Below are positions 5,372 to 22,288 of a stretch of 22,530 bases of DNA, one piece after another. The stretch's first letter is position 1; each line of letters opens with the position of its first letter. A program made the position numbers and the translations under genes. The notes beneath the pieces were generated by a model, which was not told the origin of the DNA, ran no database searches, and saw only the letters and a program-made list of their open reading frames with translations. The stretch comes from a virus. Location of the stretch: positions 1 to 22,530 of the IMG/VR virus record IMGVR_UViG_3300002334_000142; one strand, written 5' to 3'.

Positions 5372-6928
5372 TTACGCTGCAGCCACGGTAGGTAGGTAAT
5401 CAAAGAACACCATCATCATAGTGTAATCTAGAGTTGGATCGATAGACGCAGCTGTCGCAGCATCCATATCAAGAGGGAGCTTGATTGGTTCATCTTGTTC
5501 GATATTTGGACGACCATCACCAAGCGTGATAAGAGGCACATCAAGAACGATACCTGCATTGTTTTTAGACAGTGCGATATCCAGTGTGATGCTTGTGTTT
5601 GCACGAACAGATTCGATGGCAGCCACGTCCGCAAAATAAACTTCGAGAGAACCAGACACTTGGAAAGTACCAGCAGTCACATCGAATGAACCTAGAGTAC
5701 CAACCGCTTTGTTTGGAGACAGGTTGTTATTCAGCGTAATTGTGATATCGCTTGCGAAAGCGAATAGTGGGTCTGGCGCTTCGTTAGACGAGCTCACAGC
5801 AGCCAATTTAATGCGACTGAAATCAGAGCTTGTGTTAAATGCGTCAGTTTCGACAAGAGAAGGTCTGTTTCCTGTTTTCAGAGAAGTAGGACCATCAATT
5901 GTTGAGCTGTTTGTTCCCATGAACGAAAGATCAGCAGTCATGATATCAGCAGTAGGAATGTTGAATGTCACTTCACCTGGTACCTGACCTTCAAGATATT
6001 CGGCTTGAATTTCTGCTGTGAGCGCACCATCTGGCGCACCAAGGGTACGTTCAAAATTATAAGAACGGCGTTTGATCAACGCAGCAAGTTCGTTTTTCAG
6101 CACGCGCCCGAAGAACACATTAACTGTCAGAGAGCCAGCGCTTTCGACAACCATTACGCTGTCAGACTTGTCAAATTCAATGTACGTTGCGGCAACGCTA
6201 CGGATACGTTTGAAGCCATTATTTTCTGCGTTTGTGAACACAGTACCGGCACCATCAGAACCAATGTACATCCACTCGCCGGGGATAAGCCCAAAATCGG
6301 TAAAGTCTTTTGCACCGGTTGTACGAACAAGGCGAGGTAGTGGGTTGGTAACGTCAATTTCAACTTCGCCAGCTACAAAAGCGTGACCGACATTTACGAT
6401 GCGCGCAGTTGCAGGCGGTGAAGCCTCCGCGATAAGAACACCATCAGCGACTTCAACAGAAGTGTTGAGTACAATTGCTGTTATAGCATTCACTGCATTG
6501 TTTGCAGCATTCGTGAAATTTTGACCTTGGATCAGGTCGTCAACTTGGTATGCCCCAGTTGCAGCAACTTCGTATTCATCTGGGTTACCAGAATCAACGT
6601 CAACGACTGTAACAAGTTCTTCACCTTTTATGCGATGATCTGCGAAAAAGAATCCTTGTAGGATATCTTGCAGGTTTGTTTGTGTAACATCGGTGCCAAA
6701 GCCACCATTTGCATCGAGATCAACAACAACACCTTTTTTACGCTGGCGTGAATCGTTGATTGGATTACGGGCTTTCGTCGTGATCGAACCACCAAAGTCG
6801 TCGTAGCCATTAGGCTCAAGAGGAATCCAGTCAGGAGTGCCGGGCAGAGTACCAAGCGTGGCACCAATTACTTCTTCCGCATAGCGCAGCCCAGTGGCAT
6901 TACTATCAATTTTTACTGCTGCGACCAT
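5372..6928 (-). CDS. Tail tube protein, second of two paralogues
   Basis: A protein of 518 residues if it starts at the ATG at 6926-6928 (MVAAVKIDSNATGL); an in-frame TTG at 6940 is less likely because it lacks a ribosome site. The pattern fits the Phage_tube_2-like major tail tube proteins: an N-terminal ATLGTLPGTPDW segment, a central GAPDGALTAEI / LEGQVPGEVTF part, and the C-terminal FQVSGSLEVYFAD beta-strand motif. It shares this ending with the neighbouring 617-residue protein (FEISGSLEAYFET). It is longer than a plain tube protein, which suggests surface-exposed inserted domains. It follows a promoter-like element at 7029-7057 and a structured leader, and precedes the chaperone genes, as a major tube gene should. 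Which of the two paralogues builds the tube is inference. Confidence 0.75.
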   Translation of the reverse strand: MVAAVKIDSNATGLRYAEEVIGATLGTLPGTPDWIPLEPNGYDDFGGSITTKARNPINDSRQRKKGVVVDLDANGGFGTDVTQTNLQDILQGFFFADHRIKGEELVTVVDVDSGNPDEYEVAATGAYQVDDLIQGQNFTNAANNAVNAITAIVLNTSVEVADGVLIAEASPPATARIVNVGHAFVAGEVEIDVTNPLPRLVRTTGAKDFTDFGLIPGEWMYIGSDGAGTVFTNAENNGFKRIRSVAATYIEFDKSDSVMVVESAGSLTVNVFFGRVLKNELAALIKRRSYNFERTLGAPDGALTAEIQAEYLEGQVPGEVTFNIPTADIMTADLSFMGTNSSTIDGPTSLKTGNRPSLVETDAFNTSSDFSRIKLAAVSSSNEAPDPLFAFASDITITLNNNLSPNKAVGTLGSFDVTAGTFQVSGSLEVYFADVAAIESVRANTSITLDIALSKNNAGIVLDVPLITLGDGRPNIEQDEPIKLPLDMDAATAASIDPTLDYTMMMVFFDYLPTVAAA

Positions 6929-6960
6929 TTCGAATTCCAATCTTGTTGTAAAGGAGCGGG

Positions 6961-7075: not shown

Positions 7076-8929
7076 CTATATGGGCTTGACACTTGAAAAC
7101 CGGTCAATTTGAATAAGACACTGTGTAATTGGGTCTCTTTTTGCCATCCATTGCAATTCATCTCGAATTCCAGCAGGCACATCTTGCGTTGATGCGCCTC
7201 TGAGCTCGACTAAATGGTCTGTGATAATGACGCTAGGAATCGTAAAAACGTAAACATTTCCAGATAAGTCATTGTAATTCCAAGACAAAGATATTGTGTC
7301 GTGATTCACAAAATTATTGTATAAATCCAGTGTCTCAAAATAAGCTTCTAGCGATCCAGAAATTTCAAAACGTCCAAGTCCTACATCAATCGGATATTTT
7401 GTTCCAACTGCAAATTGCTTTTTCGCATTTGCATCAATATCCAATACTACTTTTTCCACTGCAGTTGTCATCGGCAAACCATCTTTACTAATATTTCCGA
7501 TATTCGCCGTGCAATGAATTACATTTGTGGTTACAGATCGTAATCTATTATACGAAGATGCATTGAACTGATCCATTTGTGTCAGAGACTCCAGCACTGT
7601 ACCCGACACTAAATTATCTCCATCTTTCAGCAGAATGGAATCTCTCGGTGTGACTCTTCTTCCTTCCAGGGCAACCTCGCCCATCACCATTTGTCCCGCC
7701 ATCATGTGCAGCGACAATGCAGATACTCTCATGCCATCTTGCAGGCTGCTAATTCCTAAATCTTCGTACTGTTCTTCAATCGTGAATGATTTTTTTGATG
7801 CCTGTGGGTCGGTTGGATTTTTCAACACCGATCCTTTTATTGCTACAGCTCCAAGAACCGCCACACTTGGTGGGTGAGGCGTCACAGTTAGAGTGTCTGC
7901 ACCAGCAGCCGTAATCGTGAAGAAACCGCGTGCAGCGGCTGCGCTGGCAACAGAAACAGTAGAAAAAACCATTGCTCCACCTGAATCCACCATTTCGGCA
8001 GCTATGGCGGTTACTAAGTTCGTCAGAAAATACAAAGTGACAACAGAGCCAGATACGGTTGCCCGGATGCCAATGTCTCCAGAGTTGTTTTTTTCATTGA
8101 TCGCCGAGCAGATATTAGTAGCAGAATCAGCACTGGTTGCTCCAGTAGCAAAATCGACACCGGCAAATAACGAAATTATATCGATACCGTCAGTCATAGA
8201 GACATTATCGCCAGCAGTCACGGTGGCGCTGAATGTGATTGTTTGATTAGAAAATGTGATTGATCCGGTAGGAATATCAAGATAAATTCTCTGACCTACA
8301 ACAAACGATCCTAATTCATTATTCCCATTGCTATCAATTGTCGAATTACCACCTGTACCCAAACGAATGTCTGAACTTTGAACAACCACATCATTTGCAT
8401 CGATCAGAAACGCATAGCCATTTGTTGCCTCAATAGTGCCGGGAGACGTAGTAAAGGTGATCGTTGTATCAGTAGCACCAAAAGAAATTGTGCTGATAGC
8501 ATTGTATCCATTATTGCCTTGAGTCAGAAATCCTTCCAGCTTCACGATTTGACCCACAAAGAAGTATCCAGTTACATCTGCGCCAGACACCACTATGGTG
8601 TTATTGGCTGTCCAAGCAACGTCACCAAATTTGTCAAACGTCATTGATCTCGACCAAGTGCCTGATAAAACAGCCTCTAAGAAAGCATCGTGTGACCCTG
8701 CACTTATTTCAAATGATTGTTGGGAATTGGCACCATGAGTCACTTCAACTATTCTGCTCACCATGCGGTCGCTATTAAGCTGCCCATTGAGTACTGAATC
8801 TTTTTCTGTTATGAGATTGTTATGGATGAAATTTATAACTCGCGCAGAGCCATTGACTGGAGTTTGTCCCCATTCAGTTTCATCAAGGATAACAAGTTTG
8901 GAATCTTGAGGGTGGGCTATTTCGGTCAC
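7076..8929 (-). CDS. Tail tube-like protein, first of two paralogues
   Basis: A 617-residue beta-rich protein starting with GTG at 8927-8929; the ribosome site AAAGGAG overlaps the end of the tail terminator gene, whose stop is two bases away. The N-terminus (ILDETEWGQTPVNG, then LNSDRMVSRIVE) and the pattern SFEISAGSHDAFLEAVL fit phage tail tube proteins of the Phage_tube_2 type. The C-terminal part contains FEISGSLEAYFETLDLYNNF, similar to the end of the downstream paralogue. Residues about 100-360 are low-complexity, Thr/Ser/Ala-rich and look like inserted domains. Following the terminator gene is the normal place for a tail tube gene. It could instead be a tube-associated or minor tail protein; both paralogues need structural comparison to decide. 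Confidence 0.7.
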   Translation of the reverse strand: MTEIAHPQDSKLVILDETEWGQTPVNGSARVINFIHNNLITEKDSVLNGQLNSDRMVSRIVEVTHGANSQQSFEISAGSHDAFLEAVLSGTWSRSMTFDKFGDVAWTANNTIVVSGADVTGYFFVGQIVKLEGFLTQGNNGYNAISTISFGATDTTITFTTSPGTIEATNGYAFLIDANDVVVQSSDIRLGTGGNSTIDSNGNNELGSFVVGQRIYLDIPTGSITFSNQTITFSATVTAGDNVSMTDGIDIISLFAGVDFATGATSADSATNICSAINEKNNSGDIGIRATVSGSVVTLYFLTNLVTAIAAEMVDSGGAMVFSTVSVASAAAARGFFTITAAGADTLTVTPHPPSVAVLGAVAIKGSVLKNPTDPQASKKSFTIEEQYEDLGISSLQDGMRVSALSLHMMAGQMVMGEVALEGRRVTPRDSILLKDGDNLVSGTVLESLTQMDQFNASSYNRLRSVTTNVIHCTANIGNISKDGLPMTTAVEKVVLDIDANAKKQFAVGTKYPIDVGLGRFEISGSLEAYFETLDLYNNFVNHDTISLSWNYNDLSGNVYVFTIPSVIITDHLVELRGASTQDVPAGIRDELQWMAKRDPITQCLIQIDRFSSVKPI

Positions 8930-9727: not shown

Positions 9728-10249
9728 TTAACTCCTTACAATTTTGCCGAACGAACTGCCATTTGCGTTTTTGACACTTCCAAGGTCTTCAATTAACAGG
9801 AACACATCATTTGGAATGGTAATGGCGGTGTATCCTGTAGTGAACGTAATTTCGATTACATCCACGACCAATTTTTCGATGCCTGCAGAATCAAGAGGCT
9901 CGCCAAGATCACGCGCCAGAAGAAACCTTGTCAGTTCCATGATCGCGTATTGCAGTCGGATCGGGATTGTTGTATCCGTGATCAGAATATTTTCATGATC
10001 ATAGGCATAAGACCGAGGCCAAGCCAGGATATATGTCTCGTTCAGTTTTGTTCCTTCGAACGCCATACGGTATTCGATATAGCGGGTAGCCCACACAAGA
10101 ACTCGCTCTTTTTGATCGTCTGACAATGCATCCCAGACAAGAAAAGCATTAGCGTTCGCTTCAATATAGTCGCTGGCAGCAGCAAGCGTAACGTAGCCGT
10201 TAGCTCCCGCAACTCCTGATCCATCTTCAATTACATAACTGAATGCCAT
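9728..10249 (-). CDS. Head-tail connector adaptor (DnaT_2-like family)
   Basis: The 173-residue product begins SYVIEDGSGVAGANGYVTL, followed by an ASDYIEANAN helix, RVLVWATRYIEYRM, LAWPRSYAYDHEN, and IPIRLQYAIMELTRFLL. This is the pattern of the family that databases label 'DnaT-like ssDNA-binding' but which in phages sits in the head-tail adaptor position after the capsid genes. No replication genes are nearby, so I favour the structural role. The ATG at 10249 has GGAC upstream. It begins a unit behind a GTTAACCAT box and is followed by head closure with a two-base gap. Confidence 0.72.
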   Translation of the reverse strand: MAFSYVIEDGSGVAGANGYVTLAAASDYIEANANAFLVWDALSDDQKERVLVWATRYIEYRMAFEGTKLNETYILAWPRSYAYDHENILITDTTIPIRLQYAIMELTRFLLARDLGEPLDSAGIEKLVVDVIEITFTTGYTAITIPNDVFLLIEDLGSVKNANGSSFGKIVRS

Positions 10250-10308: not shown

Positions 10309-11010
10309 TTATTTGAGTTTGGAAAATGCGGTAACCCACTCGCGCGCATGCTCTGATCGAACCACATCCTCCGGTAGGAACTCAACAATGTCGGCGTCTA
10401 TGTCAAACTTTTCAATAATCTTCAACACATCTTCCAGACCTGAATCATTTATATCAATTTGTGAGGGATCGCCAGTCACAACATATGTGGTGTTCTCGCC
10501 TTTTCTTGTCAAGAATAATCTCAGATCGGAAAAGGAACAATTCTGTGCTTCATCCAAGATGACGAAAGCATCCCTGAATGTGCGTCCGCGCATGTGCTCA
10601 AATGACAGGAATTCAATTTCTTTTGTCATCAGCATGCGCTGCAGCTCGTTGGTGCTGACTTCATCTTTGAACGCATCCATGAGTGGGACCAACCATGGTG
10701 CCAATTTCTGTTCCAGCTTGCCTGGGAGAAAACCCTGTGCATGCCGTGGGTCGGAAACAGTAGGTCTGGCGATGAGAATTTTGGAGGTCTGGCGTGCTTT
10801 CAATTTTTGAATAGCGATCCGAGCAGACAGCCATGTCTTGCCGGTGCCAGCTTCGCCTACTGCAAAAACTTGATCGCAATTCTGCAGGCTATCTATGAGA
10901 TCGCGCTGCCGGTCATTTCTTGGGATTATGGGAGGTGCTTGATGTGCTTTTTTCGCAGCTCTTCGCTGTTGACGTTTTCGGGCCTTATTACTAATTGATT
11001 GCTCAGACAA
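10309..11010 (-). CDS. phoH: PhoH-like P-loop ATPase
   Basis: A 233-residue PhoH-family ATPase. It has Walker A GEAGTGKT at residues 52-59, the ARPTVSD motif near 81-87, Walker B VILDEAQN at 150-157, the TGDPSQID motif at 179-186 and the RSEHAREW end motif. The N-terminus is very basic (ARKRQQRRAAKKAHQ), suggesting nucleic acid contact. It starts with TTG at 11008-11010 behind a clear AGGAG, so initiation is non-AUG. PhoH proteins are common in marine phages, and the family has been linked to RNA metabolism and helicase/RNase activity, but the phage role is not settled. It sits within the structural region, last in a unit after two small membrane proteins. Confidence 0.92.
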   Translation of the reverse strand: MSEQSISNKARKRQQRRAAKKAHQAPPIIPRNDRQRDLIDSLQNCDQVFAVGEAGTGKTWLSARIAIQKLKARQTSKILIARPTVSDPRHAQGFLPGKLEQKLAPWLVPLMDAFKDEVSTNELQRMLMTKEIEFLSFEHMRGRTFRDAFVILDEAQNCSFSDLRLFLTRKGENTTYVVTGDPSQIDINDSGLEDVLKIIEKFDIDADIVEFLPEDVVRSEHAREWVTAFSKLK

Positions 11011-11605: not shown

Positions 11606-12205
11606 TTATACAATCGCGATGACTGTCGTATAGCTTATGTCCAACAGTGCGGAGAAACTGGAAGCATCACCATTGCCAGTATCGATTGTTGATGGTGTAA
11701 AATATTCCAGCGTTCCACCACCATCGTTTGTGGCTCTGAGTCTGAACTGGGCATCGGCTGGAGAAGCCTGCCCTTGTCCAAATTCCATACTGATGAAACC
11801 TTCGCCATTTGATGCTATTTCCACCTGTCTGAGCGTGTTCGGAGTAGCAACCCAGGTGCTTCCACTATCTACACTGGATTCTACCCATATTAGCAATTCA
11901 GAAGCCTGTCCGCCGCCTGCTCTTTGAAGATGCAGGGATAATAGAGACACAGCGGTAGATAATGCAACTTTCAGTGTCACAACGCCATTGACTACAAGCA
12001 TATCGTCGTTTTCGACAGAGCCAAAGTCAATTGTCACACAGGACGCTGAATCTCCCGAAATAAAAGTTGGTATCGTTGTCCCGGCAGACTCGCTGTGCGC
12101 TGCTACGTTTTTCGTGAACTCAGTGATTAACGTGATAAAATTATCGTTAATTTTACCTGCTGCAACTCCCCAAGTTGTTGAGGATAGGATTGTTGAAATG
12201 CTCAT
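11606..12205 (-). CDS. Fibre-like or surface beta-sandwich virion protein
   Basis: A 199-residue protein. The N-terminus SSTTWGVAAGKINDNFITL is the kind of short motif seen at the start of phage fibre and surface proteins, and the following LITEFTKNVAAH may be a short helix. The rest is predicted beta sandwich (LLSLHLQRAGGGQASELLIW, WVATPNTLRQVEIA, FRLRATNDGGGTLEYF) ending in LLDISYTTVIAIV, reminiscent of C1q/TNF-like trimer heads. It does not share the N-terminal domain of the three spike genes upstream but is last in the same unit, so I infer a virion surface role. No enzymatic motif is visible. Confidence 0.45.
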   Translation of the reverse strand: MSISTILSSTTWGVAAGKINDNFITLITEFTKNVAAHSESAGTTIPTFISGDSASCVTIDFGSVENDDMLVVNGVVTLKVALSTAVSLLSLHLQRAGGGQASELLIWVESSVDSGSTWVATPNTLRQVEIASNGEGFISMEFGQGQASPADAQFRLRATNDGGGTLEYFTPSTIDTGNGDASSFSALLDISYTTVIAIV

Positions 12206-12222: not shown

Positions 12223-14169
12223 TTAAGCAGTTTTTGTTATATGCTCGGCAATCTCAGTTGGAGTTAATGCCCGATCCACTAATGTAGCCACACCAATTCG
12301 ACCTAGTATGCCAGCTCCACCACTATTGCTGAGGTCGCCTAAATACGATCTAGTGTGCCATGCAGTGGGGTCAGCCACTGACGTGTTCTCATCTATCTCA
12401 ACACCATCCACATATTCTTTCATAGTTGTAGATGCCGCATCATATGTCACAGCAAAATGATACCATGTGTCTATTGCAGGGGCTGGTGATGCCGATGCCA
12501 CTTGATCGAAGGCACCATTGTGTGCAGCCTGCCAAGCATTTGACGGAACCCAAAGAAGGTGCGAGTGGGTTCCTACAGGAGCATAGTATGCAGACCATAC
12601 ATTCATATTGCCAGCCAATGAATCAAATTTTACCCACACTAATTTTGAATAACTGCTGGCAATTAAATCAGCAGTACCATCTAATTCAACACTATCATCC
12701 GCTGCCGGTACTGATATAACATTTTTACCAACATCAGAATCAAAAACAATTGCTGCTGAGTTCACGAAGGTGACAGTCGCCGATCCAACCAAATCATCTG
12801 AGCCTACAGACACGTCAATGTGATTAGTGATATTTGCCGCAAAAGTAAATCCGAGTGTTGCGGTCGCTTCTATGTTGCTCGCCACACTTGCTCCAATCGC
12901 ATTTATTGCAGATATTCTGTATTGGTAGGAAGTCGCGGCGGCTAGTCCAGTGTCATTGTGAGATGTAACAGCACCTATTCCAGAAGCAACCACAGAAAAA
13001 TTACCCCCTGTAAACTTTCTTTCTATCACATAATCTGTGATAGTTGACTCTCCGTCAAACACAGGAGCTGTCCACGCCAAAGCCACAGTTGTTGCTGCCG
13101 GTGTTGCATCAAAAGTTATCACTTTATTTGGCACCGCCGGGCTTGCCGGAATACTTCCATTGTTGCCTCGGGCACTTTCCCAGCTATCAAAATATCTACT
13201 GCCTAATTTTCTCAGAGATTCAGAATCGAAATGAAGATTGTCTCCTTGTAAAGTGAGATTGGCGGTATCCACATAAGCACAATTTACAAAATTGTCTGGT
13301 ATCGCAGCCATGGCATCATCCATCTCTTGTCGATCTGAATTTATTATAAACTCGTCACAGAAACCTCCAGCTACAAATGGCCCAGTTACGTCTACAAGCA
13401 TTTGATCAATCATAGCATACAATAAATTAGGATATGTGACAGGTATGCCTACATCAGACTCGCCTTGCTGCCAGAGTGTTCCTCCCATTAGGGCGTTTGG
13501 TACTAGACTCTTTGCCAAAATAATTCTAGCAACGGCATCAGAATAAAGCGAGTCTACCGGATTCCAAAAATCATTAGAGAAACCTGATCCAGATTTTCCA
13601 TGTGGTACTAAAATTAATGTTGCATTAGGGTACCTTCTCATGAAAGCTATCGCAAATTGTAAAGCAAACCCCATGTCTCCAGGCGTTTCATCCACGTGAT
13701 CGAGAGGTACCGTAGCTGCGACTATTTCTCCAGATTGATTTAATTGCATTACACCATCTGGATATGCCTGCCCACTATCAAACGTATCAGAGCCTACAGC
13801 ATTTGACTGACCAAAAACTCCGACAATTGCAGGTCCAGTGATTTCTGCCGGGAACCCTCTTTGTGCCACCGGTACAGAATCAATTGAGAAATGTAGTTTA
13901 ACATCTGAAATGGTGATTGTGCCCGAAGGCTCACCATCGGCAAGGATAACGCTGACTGCGCTCCCCGCGCGCGGTCCTACATATACTGCTAAATTTGGTG
14001 CCACGTAAGTATCATCAGTAGTGGCATCAGTACCATCAACTCTGTAATGAAATCCTTGTTTAGAGATCATACGCACAGTAGCAGAATAATTATACGCTGT
14101 CGCACTCTCTGCTGTAGCAGCAGCAGCTTCCAACTCTTGCGATGATATTTCGTAGAATGATTCAGACAT
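12223..14169 (-). CDS. Receptor-binding spike with SASA/SGNH acetylesterase, FN3 and LamG domains
   Basis: A 648-residue modular protein. Residues 1-95 form the domain shared with the two upstream spikes (ATVR, GFHYRVDGTDAT, AVSVILADGEPSGTI). Residues about 113-330 are a SASA/CE6-type SGNH hydrolase: block I GQSNAVG at 120-126 (Ser122 likely nucleophile), WQQGESD at 233-239, and GDNLHF with D310 and H313 as the likely Asp-His pair. Residues about 345-437 look like fibronectin type III, and about 455-645 like a LamG/concanavalin fold (VWVKFD, DTWYHFAVTYD, YVDGVEI). SASA enzymes remove O-acetyl groups from sugars, so it probably modifies an acetylated surface glycan at adsorption. ATG at 14169 has GGAA upstream, and the upstream stop is two bases away. 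Confidence 0.8.
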   Translation of the reverse strand: MSESFYEISSQELEAAAATAESATAYNYSATVRMISKQGFHYRVDGTDATTDDTYVAPNLAVYVGPRAGSAVSVILADGEPSGTITISDVKLHFSIDSVPVAQRGFPAEITGPAIVGVFGQSNAVGSDTFDSGQAYPDGVMQLNQSGEIVAATVPLDHVDETPGDMGFALQFAIAFMRRYPNATLILVPHGKSGSGFSNDFWNPVDSLYSDAVARIILAKSLVPNALMGGTLWQQGESDVGIPVTYPNLLYAMIDQMLVDVTGPFVAGGFCDEFIINSDRQEMDDAMAAIPDNFVNCAYVDTANLTLQGDNLHFDSESLRKLGSRYFDSWESARGNNGSIPASPAVPNKVITFDATPAATTVALAWTAPVFDGESTITDYVIERKFTGGNFSVVASGIGAVTSHNDTGLAAATSYQYRISAINAIGASVASNIEATATLGFTFAANITNHIDVSVGSDDLVGSATVTFVNSAAIVFDSDVGKNVISVPAADDSVELDGTADLIASSYSKLVWVKFDSLAGNMNVWSAYYAPVGTHSHLLWVPSNAWQAAHNGAFDQVASASPAPAIDTWYHFAVTYDAASTTMKEYVDGVEIDENTSVADPTAWHTRSYLGDLSNSGGAGILGRIGVATLVDRALTPTEIAEHITKTA

Positions 14170-14171
14170 TT

Positions 14172-15638
14172 TTATTCCTTACCTGCTTTTTCTGATAACC
14201 ATGTTATCAGTAATGTATCTTCTGCTGCTGTTAATTCTTCTGTTATCACTATTTGATTTGTCAGCCCAGAAAACCTCAAACTATCAGAAGCCGCTCCCCA
14301 TCCTGAAAAAGATAAAATATCATTTGTCATATCTAATCCTTTTATGGTTATTACGTGAGGTGTTCCGTCTGATGCTTCGGTGTGTAATTGTTGTCTCGTA
14401 TGCGGCGACACAGCTACACCATCGACGAAAGTTCCACGAGTTGCAGCCGGTGAATTTATATCTGCACTTATATCTCCAGAATCAAATCTCCCAGCGTATG
14501 GAGCAGACGTGCCTTCAAATCCTCCAGAAGAAAACAGTACAGAATCATCATCTGACGTTGTGCCTGCCCAATAGAAATCTAAATCGCTAACATTGGCATT
14601 CTCATTTAAAAATCCGATAGCATAGCCATCATTTGTTCCATCAGTATTAATTCCATATATGCCATTTACTATGCCGAGTAAACCACGATATTCTGCAGTT
14701 GATTGTGACATGTGCGCGCCTATCAGCGGACGTTCATATGCGTAATCTATTTCCCATTCAGTAACCCCGGAAAATGCACTAGATATTATCAATGAAGGAT
14801 GGGATAGAATGAGTCTCTGATCTATCTCAAACCATTCCCCAATGGTCGATTCTCGTGGCACAATATCAGTCCATGTACCATGATATGTCTGCAATGAAGT
14901 GGACGTAGAACCACTGACTCTTCTAGCTCTCATGTTTCTTTTATTTATTGTGTTTAGAGGAATTCCCTGCTGTATTCCGGCTAAATTAGCGGTTGCTGTA
15001 AACACATAATTACCATCCACAACGGCTCCCACACTCATATTACTCAGAGCATATGGATTCCAACCATTTGGTATCAATATGCCTCCGCCTGCATCATAAG
15101 TTCCTTCTGAGAAATTAGGATTCTCCAATATATTAGATTGTTTCGCAATGAATTCATCTGGAGACATGTCACGAATAACGGCCTTATCTAATATAGTATA
15201 AACTGAATCTAAATGTGCATTGACCGGATCAACAGCAAAGGCATCCTTGTACATTTTTGTCAAGTCAGACAGGTCCCATATGTGTCTCAATTTGCTGCCC
15301 AGCATGAAAGGGTGCCATTTAACATCCGGTGTAGGATTAATTGTGACTGCACCTTTTTGACTGTAAAGCCTTATTGAAGACAAGAATACATCACCGGACG
15401 TTTCTCCTGAGGCAAGCAGCACGCTTACTAGCGTATCTTTAGGTGGATTGATTAATATTGGATCGTTGGCATCCACCAGAGTATCAGACGTTGTGGCAAC
15501 TGTCCCTATAGCATAATGAAATGATTTTGTAGAGACTATTCGAACCAAAGCACCATATGAATAAGCGTCAGCATTGCTAACCACATCTGGGATAACACTG
15601 ACAGATTGAGAAGATATTGTGTGAAAGGCTTCTGCCAT
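14172..15638 (-). CDS. Receptor-binding spike with carbohydrate-binding-like modules
   Basis: A 488-residue protein. Residues 1-95 are the shared spike N-terminal domain (GALVRIVSTKSFHYAIG, LVSVLLASGETSGDV). A linking segment (VKWHPFMLGSKLRHIWDLSD) resembles text seen before C-terminal ligand-binding domains in phage fibres. A galactose-binding-like beta sandwich follows at about 165-315 (NILENPNFSEG, IPNGWNPYALSN), and a LamG-like region at about 320-480 (DGYAIGF, ADINSPAATRGTFVDG, LRFSGLTNQIVI). I see no catalytic motif, so binding rather than cleavage is likely. It sits between the deacetylase spike and the esterase spike with short gaps, so all three are probably made together. Confidence 0.6.
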   Translation of the reverse strand: MAEAFHTISSQSVSVIPDVVSNADAYSYGALVRIVSTKSFHYAIGTVATTSDTLVDANDPILINPPKDTLVSVLLASGETSGDVFLSSIRLYSQKGAVTINPTPDVKWHPFMLGSKLRHIWDLSDLTKMYKDAFAVDPVNAHLDSVYTILDKAVIRDMSPDEFIAKQSNILENPNFSEGTYDAGGGILIPNGWNPYALSNMSVGAVVDGNYVFTATANLAGIQQGIPLNTINKRNMRARRVSGSTSTSLQTYHGTWTDIVPRESTIGEWFEIDQRLILSHPSLIISSAFSGVTEWEIDYAYERPLIGAHMSQSTAEYRGLLGIVNGIYGINTDGTNDGYAIGFLNENANVSDLDFYWAGTTSDDDSVLFSSGGFEGTSAPYAGRFDSGDISADINSPAATRGTFVDGVAVSPHTRQQLHTEASDGTPHVITIKGLDMTNDILSFSGWGAASDSLRFSGLTNQIVITEELTAAEDTLLITWLSEKAGKE

Positions 15639-15650
15639 AATTTTTCTTTC

Positions 15651-17843
15651 TTAGCTAACAAATACTGGTGTGCACACTAATTTGAATGTATCAGTTCTTG
15701 TGCCGGAGGTGTTGTAGATATAAAAATCAGATATACCCGTTTGTCTTATAAATGGTCTGTCAATTATAGCACGAGAAAACAGTCGAGTAAACTGTCCCCC
15801 TTGTACAGTATGCTGATGGTGATGATAATATGCGTTGCCGTACCCTTCGCCGCTTATCGTTGCATTTATCATGCTATTTTTTGTTGTATTGGTAAAACTT
15901 CCCCAAGTCGATCCATTATAAGTCGTGAGTAATCCGCCTCTTGTGGCAAAATCTCCCAGACCTATTCCCACAACATAACAAGTCGTCCCATTTACTGGCG
16001 AAGGCACATCTGCGCTGTCGCTGAAAGCATAATCAACAGTATGTGAAACTGTGCTGGTTGCATCAGTGCTCACAACTTTTACATCCCATTCCCAGTCCCT
16101 ATAGCCATTTACTTGCGGCTTCATGAGCTGAATGTATCTACCTATGGTCGTGTTGTATGTTGCTTCAACAGTCAACGGTCTCTTGTTTAAAGAGTCCATT
16201 CGTTCAACAATAATTTGTCCAATATTCACAGTACCTGTGCATTGAATTAAAGACAAAGCTATAGAGGCGTGGTGCCCATTACCGGTATACATTATCATTT
16301 CATGTATAGCATAATCTCCACCCGTTGACTCATAAGGTAAATTGTATGCCAGATCACCTTGTAAAAGACGATACGAATTTATGTACGAACTAGCCGTCCC
16401 ATCTGTATTCCCAGTTTGCGTGATCAGTCCTACTTCCAGCCCATGATTCCTATTTCCAGGGCCTCCGTTGAGCACCATCTCCGTTCCAATTTTGTAGCGA
16501 ATTTTTACTCTGTATCTTGTGAACGGATTGACAATGAACGTCTCTGTCTGATATCGAGTTAAATTCACACTGCTTCTATATGCCGTGGCAGTCATTAGAA
16601 TAGAGTGTGCTGATTCATTTAAAGTTTCGCCATCGTCAAACTCACAAGTATCACCAGACGCAGCAACAAATGCTCCATTGTTAACATTTGTGAACGCAGA
16701 ATCATAAATAAGATTTGCCGCGCCAATCGCCGACCATGGCACTAATTGTACGCCACTTTCTACGCACACCCGGCACAGTTCTTCAAGATGGGCTGCATGA
16801 ATATACGGTATTCCCTCGGCATCACCTTCGGCAGCTGTCTGTGGAGTGTAATGTGCATAGATAATTGCTGTTTTCTTATGTGATCCACACCCTCGAACAA
16901 AAGCTAGGAGTCTTTGAAAGGCCGCATCATTATTGCTTGGGTCTGCCGGTATCGCAGACCAGTGTTGTGTAAACTCACTTTCCTGATCGGTTATGTACAA
17001 ATGATTTCCGCTGACTCCAATATCCCCATTGATTGATCTCACCTTATCATACAATGAATAGTATGCGTTATCACTATCTGTGTTTCTCGCACCTCCACGG
17101 TAGACAGCACCATTAATTTTGTAATTAGAATATTTCGGGTACGTCAGAGTTCCGGCAACAAAATCATTCCCATTCCAAACCAATTCACCAGTCAGGAGCT
17201 GGACTATTTGTAGATTTTCGGCTGCTGCATCAGCTGCCATTACGTCTTCATCAGCCGATAGATTTAAATTTGGATGATTGCATATTTCCCAACCATAATC
17301 TTCTATCAGACTGCGCATAGCATCTGCTGTCACCCACGGTCGCCCAGCACCATCTTCGTTGTCCACATCTTCTACTTCAAGAGACAGTGATGCAGAGAAG
17401 CCATGCTTTGCTAAAATTGGCGCAGCTATCTCCCAATTATTGTAATATCCATCATCAAATATCAATACCATCTGAGTTGGTACCAGGCGCGTGGCTGCAA
17501 TAACTTGTTCTATAGCACTGGTGTCAGTTACAGCGATTTCAGAAGAGCTGCGGTCGCCCGGATACTTATTGATGGAAGACACATTGATGGTACCAGCTGA
17601 TTGCCCAGCAGCAAGGATCAAGCTTACCGGTACCCCTTTAGATGGCGCAACCTCCACAGAGCCTCCAGCATTCACCAAAGTGGAAGAGATCGTCGCGTCT
17701 GATCCATCGATTGTAAAGTGAAATGCTTTTGGTGACGTTAACCGGACCATGGTCGCGAAAGTATAAGCCACCGCTTTGTCTTCCACCATAGGTGTTAGAT
17801 CAACGGTCTGCGTAGATGTGACGTAGAATGATTCAGATAACAT
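15651..17843 (-). CDS. Receptor-binding spike with NodB-type polysaccharide deacetylase
   Basis: A 730-residue protein. Residues 1-95 are the shared spike N-terminal domain (TFATMVRLTSPKAFHFTID, PVSLILAAGQSAGTI). Residues about 122-375 form a NodB/CE4 domain: motif 1 LIFDDG with D130-D131, motif 2 GWEICNH with H190, and a motif-5-like AIIYAH ending at H331. The second metal His of motif 2 (four residues after H190) is Asn194 here, so metal binding may differ from canonical enzymes. The C-terminal half (about 380-730) is beta-rich, with probable ligand-binding modules and a YHHHQHT stretch. CE4 enzymes remove N- or O-acetyl groups from polysaccharides. ATG at 17843 follows AAGGA, directly downstream of an intrinsic terminator. 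Confidence 0.78.
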   Translation of the reverse strand: MLSESFYVTSTQTVDLTPMVEDKAVAYTFATMVRLTSPKAFHFTIDGSDATISSTLVNAGGSVEVAPSKGVPVSLILAAGQSAGTINVSSINKYPGDRSSSEIAVTDTSAIEQVIAATRLVPTQMVLIFDDGYYNNWEIAAPILAKHGFSASLSLEVEDVDNEDGAGRPWVTADAMRSLIEDYGWEICNHPNLNLSADEDVMAADAAAENLQIVQLLTGELVWNGNDFVAGTLTYPKYSNYKINGAVYRGGARNTDSDNAYYSLYDKVRSINGDIGVSGNHLYITDQESEFTQHWSAIPADPSNNDAAFQRLLAFVRGCGSHKKTAIIYAHYTPQTAAEGDAEGIPYIHAAHLEELCRVCVESGVQLVPWSAIGAANLIYDSAFTNVNNGAFVAASGDTCEFDDGETLNESAHSILMTATAYRSSVNLTRYQTETFIVNPFTRYRVKIRYKIGTEMVLNGGPGNRNHGLEVGLITQTGNTDGTASSYINSYRLLQGDLAYNLPYESTGGDYAIHEMIMYTGNGHHASIALSLIQCTGTVNIGQIIVERMDSLNKRPLTVEATYNTTIGRYIQLMKPQVNGYRDWEWDVKVVSTDATSTVSHTVDYAFSDSADVPSPVNGTTCYVVGIGLGDFATRGGLLTTYNGSTWGSFTNTTKNSMINATISGEGYGNAYYHHHQHTVQGGQFTRLFSRAIIDRPFIRQTGISDFYIYNTSGTRTDTFKLVCTPVFVS

Positions 17844-17912: not shown

Positions 17913-18329
17913 TTACTTTTTGTCTTTGCCTTTACCAGTATTTGCAACTGGAATTTGGGCTTCGGCTTTTTTAACAACCTTCTCTGTTTGTGCAACAGCA
18001 GGCGCTTCACTTGGTTTTGATCCAGCAGCTTTTTTGATTTCAACTACATCAGGAGAAAGACCTTCGTTTTCTGTAGCTTCGTCCTCTGCAACTTTCGCAG
18101 CATCTGCAGCTTCGTCAGCAGGAGCCTTTGCAGCTTCCTTTGCAGCTTCCTTTGCAGCTTTAACTACATCGTCGGTTGCTGGTTTGAAAATAGGTTGTAC
18201 CGGAGAATTTGAGGATGTTTTCCAGCCTAGAAGCTGTACAGCATCAAAAGCATTTGGAACACTCATTGCGTGAACTTTGCCTTTAAGGTCGGTTACGTTG
18301 AGGGTGATTTCATCTTTAGCAGTTGGCAT
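17913..18329 (-). CDS. Ala/Lys/Glu-rich protein of the capsid unit, unknown
   Basis: A 138-residue protein I do not recognise. The first ~50 residues (DEITLNVTDLKGKVHAMSV, FDAVQLLGW) look folded. Residues 55-90 are low-complexity Ala/Lys/Glu with AAKEAAKEAAK repeats, visible in DNA as a repeated gcttcctttgca unit on the plus strand. The rest is Pro/Ala/Lys-rich and ends in a basic GKGKDKK tail. Disordered basic tails are common in virion proteins that meet DNA or capsid. It sits between the decoration protein gene and a terminator, so a capsid-associated or head-completion role is plausible but not shown. Confidence 0.6.
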   Translation of the reverse strand: MPTAKDEITLNVTDLKGKVHAMSVPNAFDAVQLLGWKTSSNSPVQPIFKPATDDVVKAAKEAAKEAAKAPADEAADAAKVAEDEATENEGLSPDVVEIKKAAGSKPSEAPAVAQTEKVVKKAEAQIPVANTGKGKDKK

Positions 18330-18418: not shown

Positions 18419-18838
18419 TTATGCAGCGCCTGTGATAGGAGCCATGTATGCCCAGAAACCAGCAGCGGATGTGCCATCAGCTTTAGTTGATTTAACGCGG
18501 ATTGCCGTAGCAGCACCGAGTTGTTCACGAGTTAGCGTATATGTGAATGCGCCAACAGCAGTAACCACTTTTGTTACCTGTGCAACGGTGTCATCAAAAG
18601 CACCAGTGACTGATGTCTCGATTGTGAGTGTTGCGCCAGAGTCAACAATTGCGTCAATAGCACCGAAAACTGTGAAGTCCAGAGCTACAGCGTTTTCGCT
18701 GTTATTCCAATATGCAGAAAGCAGATCGAAAGAGATTACAGCAGAAGTAACATCGTTGTTAGCTGCTGGGGGAGTTGTGCCAGTGGCAAGAAACACTGTT
18801 TCGGCGTCAATTGAGTGGCGGACAGATGATGCAGTCAT
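18419..18838 (-). CDS. Capsid decoration protein, probable
   Basis: A 139-residue beta-rich protein immediately downstream of the major capsid gene. The sequence has alternating strands (VISFDLLSAYWNN, VALDFTVFGAID, GATLTIETSV, TYTLTREQLGAATAIRV) and resembles Bbp16-like capsid cement proteins in size, position and N-terminal pattern. Such proteins bind the outside of the shell and stabilise it. ATG at 18838 follows AAGGAT, the same ribosome site as used for the capsid gene, fitting high expression. Family membership is tentative. Confidence 0.6.
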   Translation of the reverse strand: MTASSVRHSIDAETVFLATGTTPPAANNDVTSAVISFDLLSAYWNNSENAVALDFTVFGAIDAIVDSGATLTIETSVTGAFDDTVAQVTKVVTAVGAFTYTLTREQLGAATAIRVKSTKADGTSAAGFWAYMAPITGAA

Positions 18839-18916: not shown

Positions 18917-19846
18917 TTAAGTTGTAACCACTGCGTTAGTGATACCCCAGACGCGAGCAGCTGCGCGACCGTGCATGATTGCCATGCTTACCAGCCATTC
19001 AACGCGAGTACGCATTACCGGAGCTGACTGTAACTGACCAAGGTCCTCAACTTCCATGACACCGTTTTGGATGCCTTGAACTTTGTTGGTACCGAGGGCG
19101 ATAACATATAGAGATGTTGATGTAGACCCACCGGCAGGACCAACTTCATTAAAGTCGATGATTTTTGTACCAGTGTCGTCGTAATCAACGTCGAGGAAAG
19201 GGATGCCGTTGTAGAAGTAAACACGGTCACCGAATTCGTTTTTCTCCCAAGTGATGTCCCCACCAACGTTTGCGCGAGCAGCAGCTGAGAGTTTACGGAA
19301 CATATCTTTTGAACCAACGATGTGCGTTGCGCCATCAACTTCGTCGATAGCTTTATCGATAGCTTCAAGAGAGAGTGGAGAGTTGGCAGAAGGTGCGCCA
19401 AGGTTCGCAGGGATTAACTGGTTACCAGTGATGCGGACACGCAGACCATCAAATTCACGAGGCTCAAGAGCCGAGTTACCATTGATCAGTTTGCCAGTTA
19501 TGTGCAGGGCCATTGATTTGATTTTCATTGCTTCCTGAGAAGAACGAATTTGCTCACCACGAGTTTTGATAAGCGCGCGATCAACGTCGAGATCACCACC
19601 CGCAATACGTAGGACTTCTACGTCTGGGTTGATAATGCCAGTTGATTCTGTGTATGATTCGTTGAAACCACGGAAAGCAACACCAGGAAGGGTACCTTCA
19701 ACGTTGTACGAAAGAGACGAACCAGGAATGTCTTCGAACGGCATAGCAGCCAGAAGAGATGAGCTTGCTGCGAACATTTCGATTACAGCAGAGCGTTTGA
19801 TGTCGCCTGAATTTTGTTTTGCAGCTTCCATTAGGGTAAGTGGCAT
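18917..19846 (-). CDS. Major capsid protein (HK97 fold)
   Basis: A 309-residue protein with the features of an HK97-fold major capsid protein lacking a long N-terminal delta domain; scaffold is supplied by the upstream gene. The N-terminal LMEAAKQNSGDIKRSAVIEM helix is followed by FEDIPGSSLSYNVEGTLPGV and the E-loop region GFNESYTESTGIINP. Then comes the spine-helix area (IRSSQEAMKIKSMALHITGK) and a P-domain core with FRKLSAAARANVGGD and GIPFLDVDYDDTGT. The end MRTRVEWLVSMAIMHGRAAARVWGI matches the usual C-terminal strand. ATG at 19846 follows AAGGAT. Position between scaffold and decoration genes supports the call strongly. Confidence 0.9.
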   Translation of the reverse strand: MPLTLMEAAKQNSGDIKRSAVIEMFAASSSLLAAMPFEDIPGSSLSYNVEGTLPGVAFRGFNESYTESTGIINPDVEVLRIAGGDLDVDRALIKTRGEQIRSSQEAMKIKSMALHITGKLINGNSALEPREFDGLRVRITGNQLIPANLGAPSANSPLSLEAIDKAIDEVDGATHIVGSKDMFRKLSAAARANVGGDITWEKNEFGDRVYFYNGIPFLDVDYDDTGTKIIDFNEVGPAGGSTSTSLYVIALGTNKVQGIQNGVMEVEDLGQLQSAPVMRTRVEWLVSMAIMHGRAAARVWGITNAVVTT

Positions 19847-19906: not shown

Positions 19907-20710
19907 TTACGCCGCGCTTAGTTTGTTTGCATAATCCAACCGCACATGTGCTGGTTGTTTATTGAATTCTTCTTCGCTCATACCTTTAGGGTATTTGCTT
20001 TTGCCATCTGAACCCTCTGCATCGCCACCTGTGTTAGGTGCGAAAAAGTGTGGTGCAGTTTTCTGCAGTCCCTGAACAAATTCAGCGCCGGACATTGGTG
20101 ATACACCATCAGTTCCATAAATCACTGTTGTTCCATCGGCTTTCATAGGAACTACTTCGTCTTCGGCATTCACTCTGTAAACAGCGCGTGCGCGCGTCAG
20201 AATGTCTGGTAGTGCTTGGACGTTCACGCCGGACTCTGGGTCAAGCACTGCGTCAGAAATATATTTGTCAACGATAGTAGTGTTGAATTTTTCAGTGCTG
20301 GCAGCCAGCGCCTGAGTCAATGCAACATTCTTGTCCGTAACTTCTGTCAGTTGAGCAGTGTGCTCTTCTGTCATTTGTGCAACACGAGAAACCAGACCAG
20401 CTTCAATAGCCGCTTCGATGTCTTTTGGTGCTTTCAACTTACCATTTTCGACATCTTGGGCTACTATGCGTAGGGCATCGAGATCGGTGGCAAATTGATC
20501 AGCATCTTCACCAACGATTTTCTTGTATCCTTCAATCACCAGTTTCAGAGCATCGCGATCTTTTGCAATCGCAGTATTGTTATCTCTGAACTCAGTCAGT
20601 TTTTCGTTGGAAACAACGTTGATAGTGAATTTTCCATCATCGGTTTTTTTGATGATGTCTTCAAATCCCGCAGGGATTTGAGCTTCGTCGGCAAATGTAA
20701 TTACGGGCAT
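19907..20710 (-). CDS. Capsid scaffolding protein
   Basis: A 267-residue acidic, helical protein upstream of the major capsid gene. The N-terminal FADEAQIPAGFEDIIKKTDD is followed by a long coiled-coil region (LTEFRDNNTAIAKDRDALK, then VAQMTEEHTAQLTEVTDKN). The C-terminal part has GGDAEGSDGKSKYPKGM and a helix (EEEFNKQPAHVRLDYANKL) resembling the capsid-binding end of phage scaffolds. Scaffolds direct procapsid assembly and then leave. ATG at 20710 follows GGGAGA. It is the first gene behind promoter-like copy B. Confidence 0.8.
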   Translation of the reverse strand: MPVITFADEAQIPAGFEDIIKKTDDGKFTINVVSNEKLTEFRDNNTAIAKDRDALKLVIEGYKKIVGEDADQFATDLDALRIVAQDVENGKLKAPKDIEAAIEAGLVSRVAQMTEEHTAQLTEVTDKNVALTQALAASTEKFNTTIVDKYISDAVLDPESGVNVQALPDILTRARAVYRVNAEDEVVPMKADGTTVIYGTDGVSPMSGAEFVQGLQKTAPHFFAPNTGGDAEGSDGKSKYPKGMSEEEFNKQPAHVRLDYANKLSAA

Positions 20711-20866: not shown

Positions 20867-20942
20867 TGGTAGAAGATAATGGATTCGAACCACTGACGCG
20901 CCGAGCTTCAATCGACCGCTCTACACACTGAGCTAATCTTCC
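20867..20942 (-). tRNA. tRNA-Phe (GAA)
   Basis: Full cloverleaf of 76 bases. Acceptor GGAAGAT pairs with ATCTTCT (G1-T72 wobble), the anticodon loop is TTGAAGC, the T-loop is TTCGAAT, and ACCA is encoded. Last tRNA of the array, directly before the terminator. Confidence 0.93.
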
Positions 20943-20946
20943 ATAT

Positions 20947-21022
20947 TGGTCAAGGTGGCTGGATTCGAACCAGCGGCCCCCGGAGTCCAAGTCCGGTACT
21001 CTACCTGCTGAGCTACACCAAG
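20947..21022 (-). tRNA. tRNA-Pro (TGG)
   Basis: A 76-base cloverleaf with anticodon loop CTTGGAC, perfect 5-bp anticodon and T stems, C1-G72 and A73 as expected for proline, and encoded CCA. The acceptor CTTGGTG against CACCTTG leaves two adjacent T-T mismatches at 2-71 and 3-70, which is unusual. Confidence 0.85.
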
Positions 21023-21079
21023 TTATTCATTTCTGAGTTATAGCAAAATTCGCTATACCTCATAAGTATTTGCTATATC

Positions 21080-21154
21080 TGGTCCTAGCATAATGAGTCG
21101 AACATTAATCTCCGAGGCCACAACTCAGCGTCTTTACCATTGGACCATGCTAGG
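21080..21154 (-). tRNA. tRNA-His (GTG), lacking G-1, A73
   Basis: A 75-base cloverleaf: acceptor CCTAGCA/TGCTAGG is perfect, T8 is conserved, the anticodon loop is TTGTGGC, T stem TAATG/CATTA is perfect, and ACCA is encoded. The base before position 1 is T and the discriminator is A, so the usual bacterial G-1:C73 pair is absent. That form is characteristic of alphaproteobacteria. Confidence 0.9.
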
Positions 21155-21159
21155 ATATT

Positions 21160-21233
21160 TGGATCACCCTCTAGGATTCGAACCTAGATTCTAAGGGTCA
21201 AAACCTTTTGTCCTCCCATTAGACGAAGGGTGA
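21160..21233 (-). tRNA. tRNA-Gln (TTG)
   Basis: A 74-base cloverleaf with acceptor TCACCCT/AGGGTGA, anticodon loop TTTTGAC, T stem CTAGG/CCTAG and encoded CCA. U1-A72 fits glutamine identity. The discriminator is T rather than the more usual G, and the anticodon stem has one A-A mismatch at its base. Confidence 0.88.
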
Positions 21234-21239
21234 ATATAT

Positions 21240-21315
21240 TGGTGCCAGTAACAGGAATCGAACCCATGGCATCCGACTTACAAGATCGGCGCTCTACCTA
21301 CTGAGCTATACTGGC
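21240..21315 (-). tRNA. tRNA-Thr (TGT)
   Basis: A 76-base cloverleaf with perfect acceptor GCCAGTA/TACTGGC, D stem GCTC/GAGC, anticodon loop CTTGTAA and encoded ACCA. Confidence 0.94.
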
Positions 21316-21324
21316 GTTGTTAAT

Positions 21325-21415
21325 TGGTGGGTCGCCAAGGAATCGAACCTTCTCGTCAACCACCTGTGTGTTTCATAGACAGCGGGATTACAATCCGCTC
21401 ACAGGGAGGCGACCC
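21325..21415 (-). tRNA. tRNA-Tyr-like (GTA), D arm reduced, atypical
   Basis: A 91-base gene with perfect acceptor GGGTCGC/GCGACCC, encoded ACCA, T-loop TTCGATT and a tyrosine-type anticodon hairpin (loop TTGTAAT). Only eight bases separate position 9 from the anticodon stem, so the D arm is missing. The variable region is about 29 bases. CCTGTG (plus strand 21400-21405) can pair with CACAGG (21363-21368) around the anticodon hairpin. It may be a degenerate tRNA or a non-standard fold. Confidence 0.65.
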
Positions 21416-21435
21416 TGTGTATAATAGCTTTCGTC

Positions 21436-21529
21436 TAGTAATCGTTTTTCGAGTTTTTTGTTCTCAGTAATCATTTTTCGATCCTTGTAATCACTTTTCG
21501 CCGTTTGGTGTCTGAGTGATCTGTTTTCA
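21436..21529. repeat. Degenerate direct repeats in the tRNA array
   Basis: In the 119-base spacer between tRNA-Tyr and tRNA-Leu, the plus-strand unit GTAATCRYTTTTCG recurs at 21438, 21467 and 21487, with a degenerate fourth copy (GTGATCTGTTTTC) at 21516. Spacings are 29, 20 and 29 bases. It looks iteron-like. Function is unknown; a remnant of decayed tRNA or coding sequence is also possible. Confidence 0.5.
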
Positions 21530-21534
21530 TGGAC

Positions 21535-21610
21535 TGGTACCTGCACTCAGAGTCGAACTGAGAAATTTAGGATTTTAAGTCCCTTGACTTTACCGTTTGC
21601 CCATGCAGGC
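21535..21610 (-). tRNA. tRNA-Leu (TAA) with short variable loop
   Basis: A 76-base cloverleaf with acceptor GCCTGCA/TGCAGGT, D arm containing GG, anticodon loop CTTAAAA, T stem CTCAG/CTGAG and encoded ACCA. The variable region is only five bases (AATTT), whereas bacterial leucine tRNAs carry a long variable arm. The amino acid call rests on the anticodon. Confidence 0.82.
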
Positions 21611-21618
21611 ATGTTGAT

Positions 21619-21696
21619 TGGTGTCCCACCTCGGACTCGAACCGAGAAAACTCTTGAGCCTAAATCAAGCGACTTTACCAATTTGCCCAGCAGGAC
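21619..21696 (-). tRNA. tRNA-Leu (TAG) with short variable loop
   Basis: A 78-base cloverleaf with acceptor GTCCTGC/GTGGGAC (two G-T pairs), perfect anticodon stem CTTGA/TCAAG around loop TTTAGGC, T stem CTCGG/CCGAG and encoded ACCA. The variable region is six bases (AGTTTT). With the adjacent Leu(TAA) gene it forms a pair of class I-shaped leucine tRNAs. Confidence 0.82.
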
Positions 21697-21708
21697 TTGA
21701 TTGAATTT

Positions 21709-21753
21709 TATGCGCTAACCCGTATAATTCAGTTTTATACGGGTTAGCGCATA
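21709..21753. repeat. 19-bp perfect inverted repeat between tRNA genes
   Basis: The arm starting TATGCGCTAACCCG (21709-21727) and the arm ending CGGGTTAGCGCATA (21735-21753) are exact complements over 19 bp around the 7-base loop TTCAGTT. No T-tract follows on either strand, so it is not a standard terminator. It could be an RNA processing site of the tRNA transcript or a protein or recombination site. Confidence 0.85.
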
Positions 21754-21757
21754 TGAT

Positions 21758-21832
21758 TGGTACCCAGTAGAGGAATTGAACCTCTGACGCGGGGTATGTA
21801 AAACCCCCGTTCTCCCACTGAACTAACCGGGC
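21758..21832 (-). tRNA. tRNA-Val (TAC)
   Basis: A 75-base cloverleaf with acceptor GCCCGGT/ACTGGGT, D stem GTTC/GAAC, perfect GGGGT/ACCCC anticodon stem around TTTACAT, T stem AGAGG/CCTCT and encoded ACCA. Confidence 0.94.
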
Positions 21833-21838
21833 ATGTGT

Positions 21839-21914
21839 TGGAGCTTACGGTAGAAGTCGAATCTACGGCCTTCCCATTCGTAGCGGGACGCTCTTCCAGC
21901 TGAGCTACGCAAGC
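21839..21914 (-). tRNA. tRNA-Arg (ACG)
   Basis: A 76-base cloverleaf with acceptor GCTTGCG/CGTAAGC, anticodon loop CTACGAA, T stem GTAGA/TCTAC and encoded CCA. The discriminator is T. Its D-arm region GTAGCTCAGCTGGAAGAGC is identical to that of the neighbouring tRNA-Arg(TCT). Confidence 0.9.
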
Positions 21915-21923
21915 ATATTTGTT

Positions 21924-21999
21924 TGGCCTTCCCGGTAGGACTCGAACCCACGACACGCGGGGTAGAAGCCCACTGCTCTTCCAGCTGAGCTACGGAAAG
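21924..21999 (-). tRNA. tRNA-Arg (TCT)
   Basis: A 76-base cloverleaf with acceptor CTTTCCG/CGGGAAG, anticodon stem GTGGG/CCCGC around loop CTTCTAC, T stem GTGGG/CCTAC, discriminator G and encoded CCA. Confidence 0.92.
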
Positions 22000-22005
22000 A
22001 TGAAT

Positions 22006-22079
22006 TGGAGCGGGTAGAGAATTTCGAAATCTCGCACGCGGGGTGGAAGCCCACTGCTCTGCCTCTGAGCTATACCTGC
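22006..22079 (-). tRNA. tRNA-Gly (TCC)
   Basis: A 74-base cloverleaf with acceptor GCAGGTA/TACCCGC (one A-C mismatch), anticodon loop CTTCCAC, discriminator T as usual for glycine, and encoded CCA. Its anticodon arm differs by a single base, in the anticodon, from the adjacent tRNA-Arg(TCT). The T stem has one T-T mismatch. Confidence 0.87.
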
Positions 22080-22087
22080 ATAAATTT

Positions 22088-22161
22088 TGGCGGTCTATGG
22101 GAGAGTTGAACTCCCGACTTCGCACTGACAATGCGCTGATTTACCACTAAACTAATAGACC
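22088..22161 (-). tRNA. tRNA-Asp (GTC)
   Basis: A 74-base cloverleaf with perfect acceptor GGTCTAT/ATAGACC, anticodon loop TTGTCAG, T stem GGGAG/CTCCC, discriminator G typical of aspartate, and encoded CCA. The D stem is weak. Confidence 0.9.
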
Positions 22162-22211
22162 TAAATGTGGTCCTTATATATGATGTATTAAGGAAAATTG
22201 TGAGGGAGGGC

Positions 22212-22288
22212 TGGTTGCCCATATCGGATTTGAACCGATGCCGCTAGGGTGAAAACCTAGAATTCTAACCAGACTAAACTAATGGGCC
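22212..22288 (-). tRNA. tRNA-Glu (TTC)
   Basis: A 77-base cloverleaf with acceptor GGCCCAT/ATGGGCA (G1-A72 mismatch), perfect anticodon stem CTAGG/CCTAG around TTTTCAC, T stem ATCGG/CCGAT and encoded ACCA. First tRNA of the visible array, a few bases after the stop of the small upstream ORF. Confidence 0.9.

Follow-up and report, generated by a model that had tools for sequence, protein, structure and literature searches.

Tailspikes with SGNH-type esterases are well known in phages, and deacetylation or esterase activity has been demonstrated for several of them (PMC9569702, PMC8471582, PMC11654681, PMC13123978). In G7C gp63.1, Possum gp66, Aristophanes gp41 and Moo19/B2, an SGNH-type O-acetyl esterase is carried on a phage surface protein. 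CE4-like domains are likewise found in phage proteins, for example in minor tail proteins of Gordonia phages and in gp10 of Arthrobacter phage Qui. A head-located example is the turret head gp31 of the archaeal virus HFTV1, a surface protein with polysaccharide-deacetylase-like and galactose-binding-like domains (PMC12494034). A modular arrangement is also described for LSH1 gp34-36 and GP4 fibre I, in which a small immunoglobulin-like (Ig-like) anchor, gp36, is combined with an adhesin payload (PMC13243795). Here we describe three proteins of 730, 488 and 648 residues (the trio) that are encoded side by side at 12223-17843 of a 22,530-nucleotide stretch (the window). The window comes from an uncultured phage, IMGVR_UViG_3300002334_000142, positions 1-22,530. 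The three open reading frames (ORFs) all lie on the minus strand, separated by gaps of 12 and 2 nt.

The trio probably represents a set of accessory surface adhesins, or spikes, in which one small virion domain is fused to swapped payloads. These payloads would be an O-acetyl esterase joined to FN3 and LamG domains, a divergent CE4-like domain and a third body without a significant match. We infer that the proteins are present in the virion, that they are anchored at the capsid or neck and that they have an enzymatic role. While the 648-residue protein resembles the SGNH tailspikes, those are located on the tail and use other N-terminal anchors. HFTV1 differs in being an archaeal virus with one turret type on a separate base protein, and it was compared by description only. 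In LSH1 and GP4 the parts are separate proteins with a fibril linker, whereas the trio holds anchor and payload in one chain; the trio slot has no recognisable fibril gene, where the Pfam scan covered the trio and a neighbouring 199-residue protein. What distinguishes the locus from these known systems is its combination of modules, its shared anchor of the phiCbK gp71 type and its position in the head module.

The shared N-terminal domain and phiCbK gp71

A preliminary description of this locus proposed that the three proteins have a common N-terminus of about 95 residues that was duplicated while the C-terminal modules were swapped, and both points are borne out. Each of the three pairs shows homology across residues 1-93, with 39.6-41.9% identity, E values from 2e-22 to 3e-15 and z = 27, 31 and 31 against 1000 shuffles. 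The similarity ends at about residue 93, and the three bodies beyond it have no significant similarity to one another (best E 1.7). An AlphaFold2 model of the domain built from the three sequences is all-beta, with a predicted local distance difference test score (pLDDT) of 78 and a predicted template-modelling score (pTM) of 0.71. Among predicted viral structures, the model best matches separate small proteins of phages, most of them 83-118 residues long, with template-modelling scores of about 0.7; a 94-residue protein of Caulobacter phage CcrBL9 is one of them. A Foldseek search of the model against the PDB returned weak cupin- or jelly-roll-like matches, none with E < 1e-3, and no function was drawn from them; searching PDB sequences with profiles of the N-terminus was equally uninformative.

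The same description had suggested a profile search with the N-terminus alone. Run with a hidden Markov model (HMM) of the three copies, this search picks out gp71 of phiCbK, a protein of 93 residues (E 7e-6 in the local ORF set). Aligning a profile of gp71 homologues with that of the trio agrees with this (hhalign 95.5%, E 1.4e-8). The comparison with gp71 alone gives 92.6%, against 3.5% for the best of 60 control ORFs, and CcrSC gp122 scores 96% against the joint profile. gp71 belongs to PHROG family 12998 (phrog_12998), which is annotated as function unknown. Direct PHROG matches of the domain copies are weaker, at 0.003 and 0.04 for two copies and none for the third.

The gene order supplies a second line of evidence. 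In phiCbK the major capsid protein (MCP) is followed by gp69, a minor capsid protein that was detected in phiCbK virions (PMC3556154), and then by gp70 and gp71. The window has the MCP, a 139-residue protein, a 138-residue protein and the first spike. Since homologues of gp69 and gp70 precede the first of the trio, the trio occupies the place of gp71. It shares both profile similarity and synteny with the gp71 family of the Dolichocephalovirinae, but gp71 is a separate protein of about 93 residues, whereas in the window the homologous domain heads proteins of 488-730 residues and is fused to three different payloads. Judged by these comparisons, the trio appears to be gp71 extended by payloads, in three copies. 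The phage itself is distantly related to phiCbK and to Microcystis phage Mwe-JY26, with an MCP 55% and 69% identical to theirs, respectively. The Dolichocephalovirinae are prolate siphophages with genomes of 200 kb or more; of the window phage, 65.8 kb is known.

The N-terminus had also been proposed to be a docking domain. This becomes more likely because Caulobacter phages have a stand-alone version at the corresponding place in the genome. The small all-beta domain would then anchor each spike to the virion, and the cassette probably originated when a small virion protein was fused to payloads and subsequently duplicated. Two further small proteins were considered as homologues of the domain and are not claimed: a 106-residue protein (L023) with a weak hmmsearch match (5e-5, filters off) that hhalign did not confirm, and a 92-residue protein of relative L053. 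In Caulobacter phage CcrPW (L036:6001-7653), the gp71/gp72 pair adjoins the portal gene, by an annotated tail fibre protein.

Payloads of the three proteins

The payload of the 648-residue protein is the most clearly defined. The SASA/SGNH esterase, FN3 and LamG domains that had been read from the sequence are solid, and all three exceed their Pfam cut-offs (81.1 bits against 24.8 for SASA, PF03629). A motif scan located GQSN with S122, QQGE at 234-237 and DxxH with D310 and H313, and the catalytic set of S122, D310 and H313 looks intact. This spike would most likely bind and de-O-acetylate a host surface glycan at adsorption.

The CE4/NodB assignment of the 730-residue protein is less direct. 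Alone, the protein scores 15.5 bits with PF01522 (E 0.017), under the cut-off of 23.1, and the assignment is supported through a bridging phage CE4 sequence. The region matches Qui gp10 pairwise with E 3e-11, and Qui gp10 itself passes PF01522 with 32.6 bits. A joint CE4-like profile reaches PgaB in the PDB (E 2.9e-4), and a phage CE4 profile finds the region with E 6e-14 in a one-sequence search. In comparison with phage CE4 sequences, the domain keeps D130/D131 of the DD motif, H190 as the first His of motif 2 and H331 as the distal His. The second His of motif 2 is missing (HPNLN), with N194 in its place, so the Asp-His-His triad is incomplete. The same position is also altered in Qui and Lilmac1015. 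Phage G has a standard HxxxH, and the Gordonia phages, unlike the 730-residue protein, retain the second His at a wider H-to-H spacing.

Because this second metal-binding His is missing, catalysis by the CE4-like domain is doubtful. The earlier proposal of two deacetylase types is therefore supported for the SASA domain and uncertain for the CE4-like domain. That the latter is dead and purely a binding module, which would be compatible with any location of the protein, is a tentative possibility. Besides the altered motif 2, it is in line with two polysaccharide-deacetylase-type lipoproteins of B. anthracis that reportedly have no deacetylase activity (PMC4505593). The retained D130/D131, H190 and H331 argue for a working enzyme, and the missing metal ligand could be supplied by another residue, for example N194. 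The single-sequence structure model of the domain is poor (pLDDT 34, pTM 0.35) and was not used. Overall, the CE4-like spike may have an altered metal site and still act, or it may only bind. A carbohydrate-binding reading of the C-terminus of this protein was tried by pairwise HMM comparison and found no support.

The 488-residue protein had been described as carrying binding modules only, which could not be confirmed, as its body has no significant match in Pfam, NCBIfam, PHROG or the PDB. A concanavalin-like reading of this body was likewise not supported by pairwise HMM comparison. None of the three proteins has a pectate-lyase-like beta-helix match in Pfam of the kind expected for a beta-helix depolymerase tailspike.

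Gene position and proposed site of attachment

The trio is encoded within the head module, flanked by the genes of the minor capsid homologue on one side and of the head-tail adaptor on the other. A 65.8-kb contig from the same sample carries all three genes at 100% identity, and a 29.8-kb contig holds the 488- and 648-residue genes complete, with the 730-residue gene cut at the contig end. Further on, the 65.8-kb contig encodes a 1213-residue protein at the tail-tip position, candidate fibres of 530 and 344 residues and an amidase-like protein; these labels come from position and appearance and not from family searches, and the two candidate fibres had no strong Pfam match. The preliminary description had implied tail spikes. 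This is not supported, since the trio belongs to the head module and the candidate tail fibres have genes of their own at another place, and anchoring of the trio at the head or neck is favoured.

Within this reading the favoured, though still tentative, location is the capsid itself, where spikes similar to the HFTV1 turrets would make reversible or enzymatic contact with the host surface before the tail engages. The trio directly follows the capsid, minor capsid and gp70 homologues, and separate candidate fibres lie behind the tail tip. Domains of similar kind are carried on the capsid hexamers of HFTV1 by its turret heads (PMC12494034), although this likeness is by description and not by sequence comparison with turret proteins. 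In phiCbK, a head filament contacts the flagellum, and the 2799-residue lectin-like gp76, which its authors considered the best filament candidate, is encoded in the same structural module (PMC3556154), just downstream and closer to the head than to the tail genes. Gene position, however, is not localisation, and gp71 is missing from the proteins detected in phiCbK virions.

Attachment to the tail or collar is a somewhat less probable alternative. The trio would then form fibres or spikes of a branched apparatus for receptor binding that simply happens to be encoded among head genes, and the shared domain would dock at the neck or tail as in modules of the GP4/LSH1 type, with the anchor-plus-payload arrangement retained. 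The neighbour of gp71 in phiCbK, gp72, is a member of the GP4 fibre I family (PF23140, E 1.7e-16; PDB 8jou, E 7e-5), and GP4 fibre I is described as a fibril joining the adhesin and the tail nozzle collar (PMC13243795). The authors of the LSH1 study propose a module of Ig-fold anchor, fibril and payload (PMC13243795). In Bcep22-like podophages the gp72 family is found between the MCP and the tail fibre genes, and the CE4 domains of Gordonia phages are in minor tail proteins. However, neither the trio nor the 199-residue protein has a Pfam match to PF23140, and BcepIL02 gp57 and Itty13 gp14, which were rejected as homologues of the shared domain, do not match it. The position of the genes before the head-tail adaptor, with candidate tail fibres following the tip protein, also argues for the head.

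Several observations count against virion adhesins mounted at the head or neck. In addition to the incomplete metal triad and the unmatched 488-residue body, gp71 is absent from the eight proteins detected in phiCbK virions (PMC3556154), and the family of its neighbour gp72 suggests the tail or collar. In searches that reach close relatives, a gp71-type domain fused to a payload was seen in no relative from outside this sample.

The idea that three head-mounted spikes on one anchor type make this bacterial phage a counterpart of the deacetylase-like turrets of HFTV1 is speculative. Should the spikes sit on the head, capsid-borne enzymes that modify surfaces would not be an archaeal peculiarity, and phrog_12998/gp71 would gain a role as a spike anchor. 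It would also suggest where missing adhesins could be sought, including the head filament of phiCbK. Even if the spikes are attached to the tail, the trio would illustrate how a phage can gain adhesins when payloads are fused to a single small domain of the virion.

The variable slot and neighbouring genes

The interval between the minor capsid and gp70 homologues and either the PhoH-like gene or the adaptor differs in content among related phages. In Mwe-JY26 it holds several small proteins and an 834-residue protein, and in relatives L019-L021 it holds genes that by eye resemble lysis cassettes. The relative closest by MCP (L053, 78%) has small proteins only and no spikes. In relative L057 (711-5647), a 482-residue phrog_24741 protein ('virion structural protein, head and packaging') is accompanied by a 1159-residue beta-propeller-like protein; these are another possible adhesin pair. 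The slot behaves like a place where accessory genes are acquired. Searches for relatives of each trio protein and of the N-terminal domain found only the same virus in IMG/VR and none among genome contigs, but they used short peptide patterns that reach close relatives, so that absence is weak evidence.

Since lysis-like cassettes in relatives indicate that the slot also accommodates non-virion genes, the trio might instead encode exclusion factors, or enzymes that modify the surface in free or secreted form, produced late in infection. This is unlikely, as the N-terminal domain is homologous to a head-region phage protein, the SASA, FN3 and LamG architecture stands within a structural gene cluster, and inspection by eye shows no signal peptide at any of the three N-termini. 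A defence-system reading of the trio was dropped after PADLOC gave no match.

On the minus strand, the order of the window is 13 tRNA genes, head scaffold, MCP, the 139- and 138-residue proteins, the trio, the 199-residue protein, two small ORFs, the PhoH-like gene, the head-tail adaptor and tail genes including the tape measure (Table 1).

Table 1. Positions of the trio, its domains and adjacent genes in the window
Feature	Position	Strand	Evidence
Head scaffolding protein	19907..20710	-	phrog_206 E 2e-27
Major capsid protein	18917..19846	-	phrog_212 E 8e-82
139-residue homologue of phiCbK gp69 (minor capsid protein)	18419..18838	-	hhalign 99.4%, E 3e-21
138-residue phiCbK gp70 homologue	17913..18329	-	hhalign 88.5%, E 2.8e-6
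730-residue protein: shared domain, divergent CE4/NodB-like domain, unassigned C-terminal region	15651..17843	-	
Shared domain copy 1, residues 2-94 of 730-residue protein	17562..17840	-	
CE4/NodB-like domain, about residues 124-375	16719..17474	-	Pfam E 0.017, Qui gp10, PgaB profile, motif alignment
488-residue protein: shared domain, unassigned body	14172..15638	-	
Shared domain copy 2, residues 1-92 of 488-residue protein	15363..15638	-	
648-residue protein: shared domain, SASA esterase, FN3, LamG	12223..14169	-	
Shared domain copy 3, residues 1-93 of 648-residue protein	13891..14169	-	
SASA/SGNH esterase, residues 119-328	13186..13815	-	Pfam PF03629 E 1.2e-22
FN3, residues 358-432	12874..13098	-	Pfam PF00041 E 7e-8
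LamG/concanavalin-like, residues 490-641	12247..12702	-	Pfam PF13385 E 1.1e-17
199-residue protein, 17 nt past the trio	11606..12205	-	phrog_23862 E 5e-6
PhoH-like protein, distal border of the variable slot in relatives	10309..11010	-	phrog_170 E 2e-75
Head-tail adaptor	9728..10249	-	phrog_477 E 6e-34

The PhoH-like gene keeps its place in the head module in Mwe-JY26, DSS3_MAL1 and several IMG/VR relatives. The adaptor homologue matches the Pfam family named 'DnaT_2, putative DnaT-like ssDNA binding' (E 4e-29) as well as the PHROG head-tail adaptor Ad1, and the Pfam name looks misleading here. The 13 tRNA genes are clustered at 20867-22288, and both the window and the 65.8-kb contig stop beside this cluster, which may represent an assembly break or the genome end. 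Among the tail genes, adjacent proteins of 522 and 617 residues (5372-6940 and 7076-8929) both belong to phrog_290 (minor tail protein); they are 28% identical across 180 residues (E 3e-7), which indicates a duplicated tail protein.

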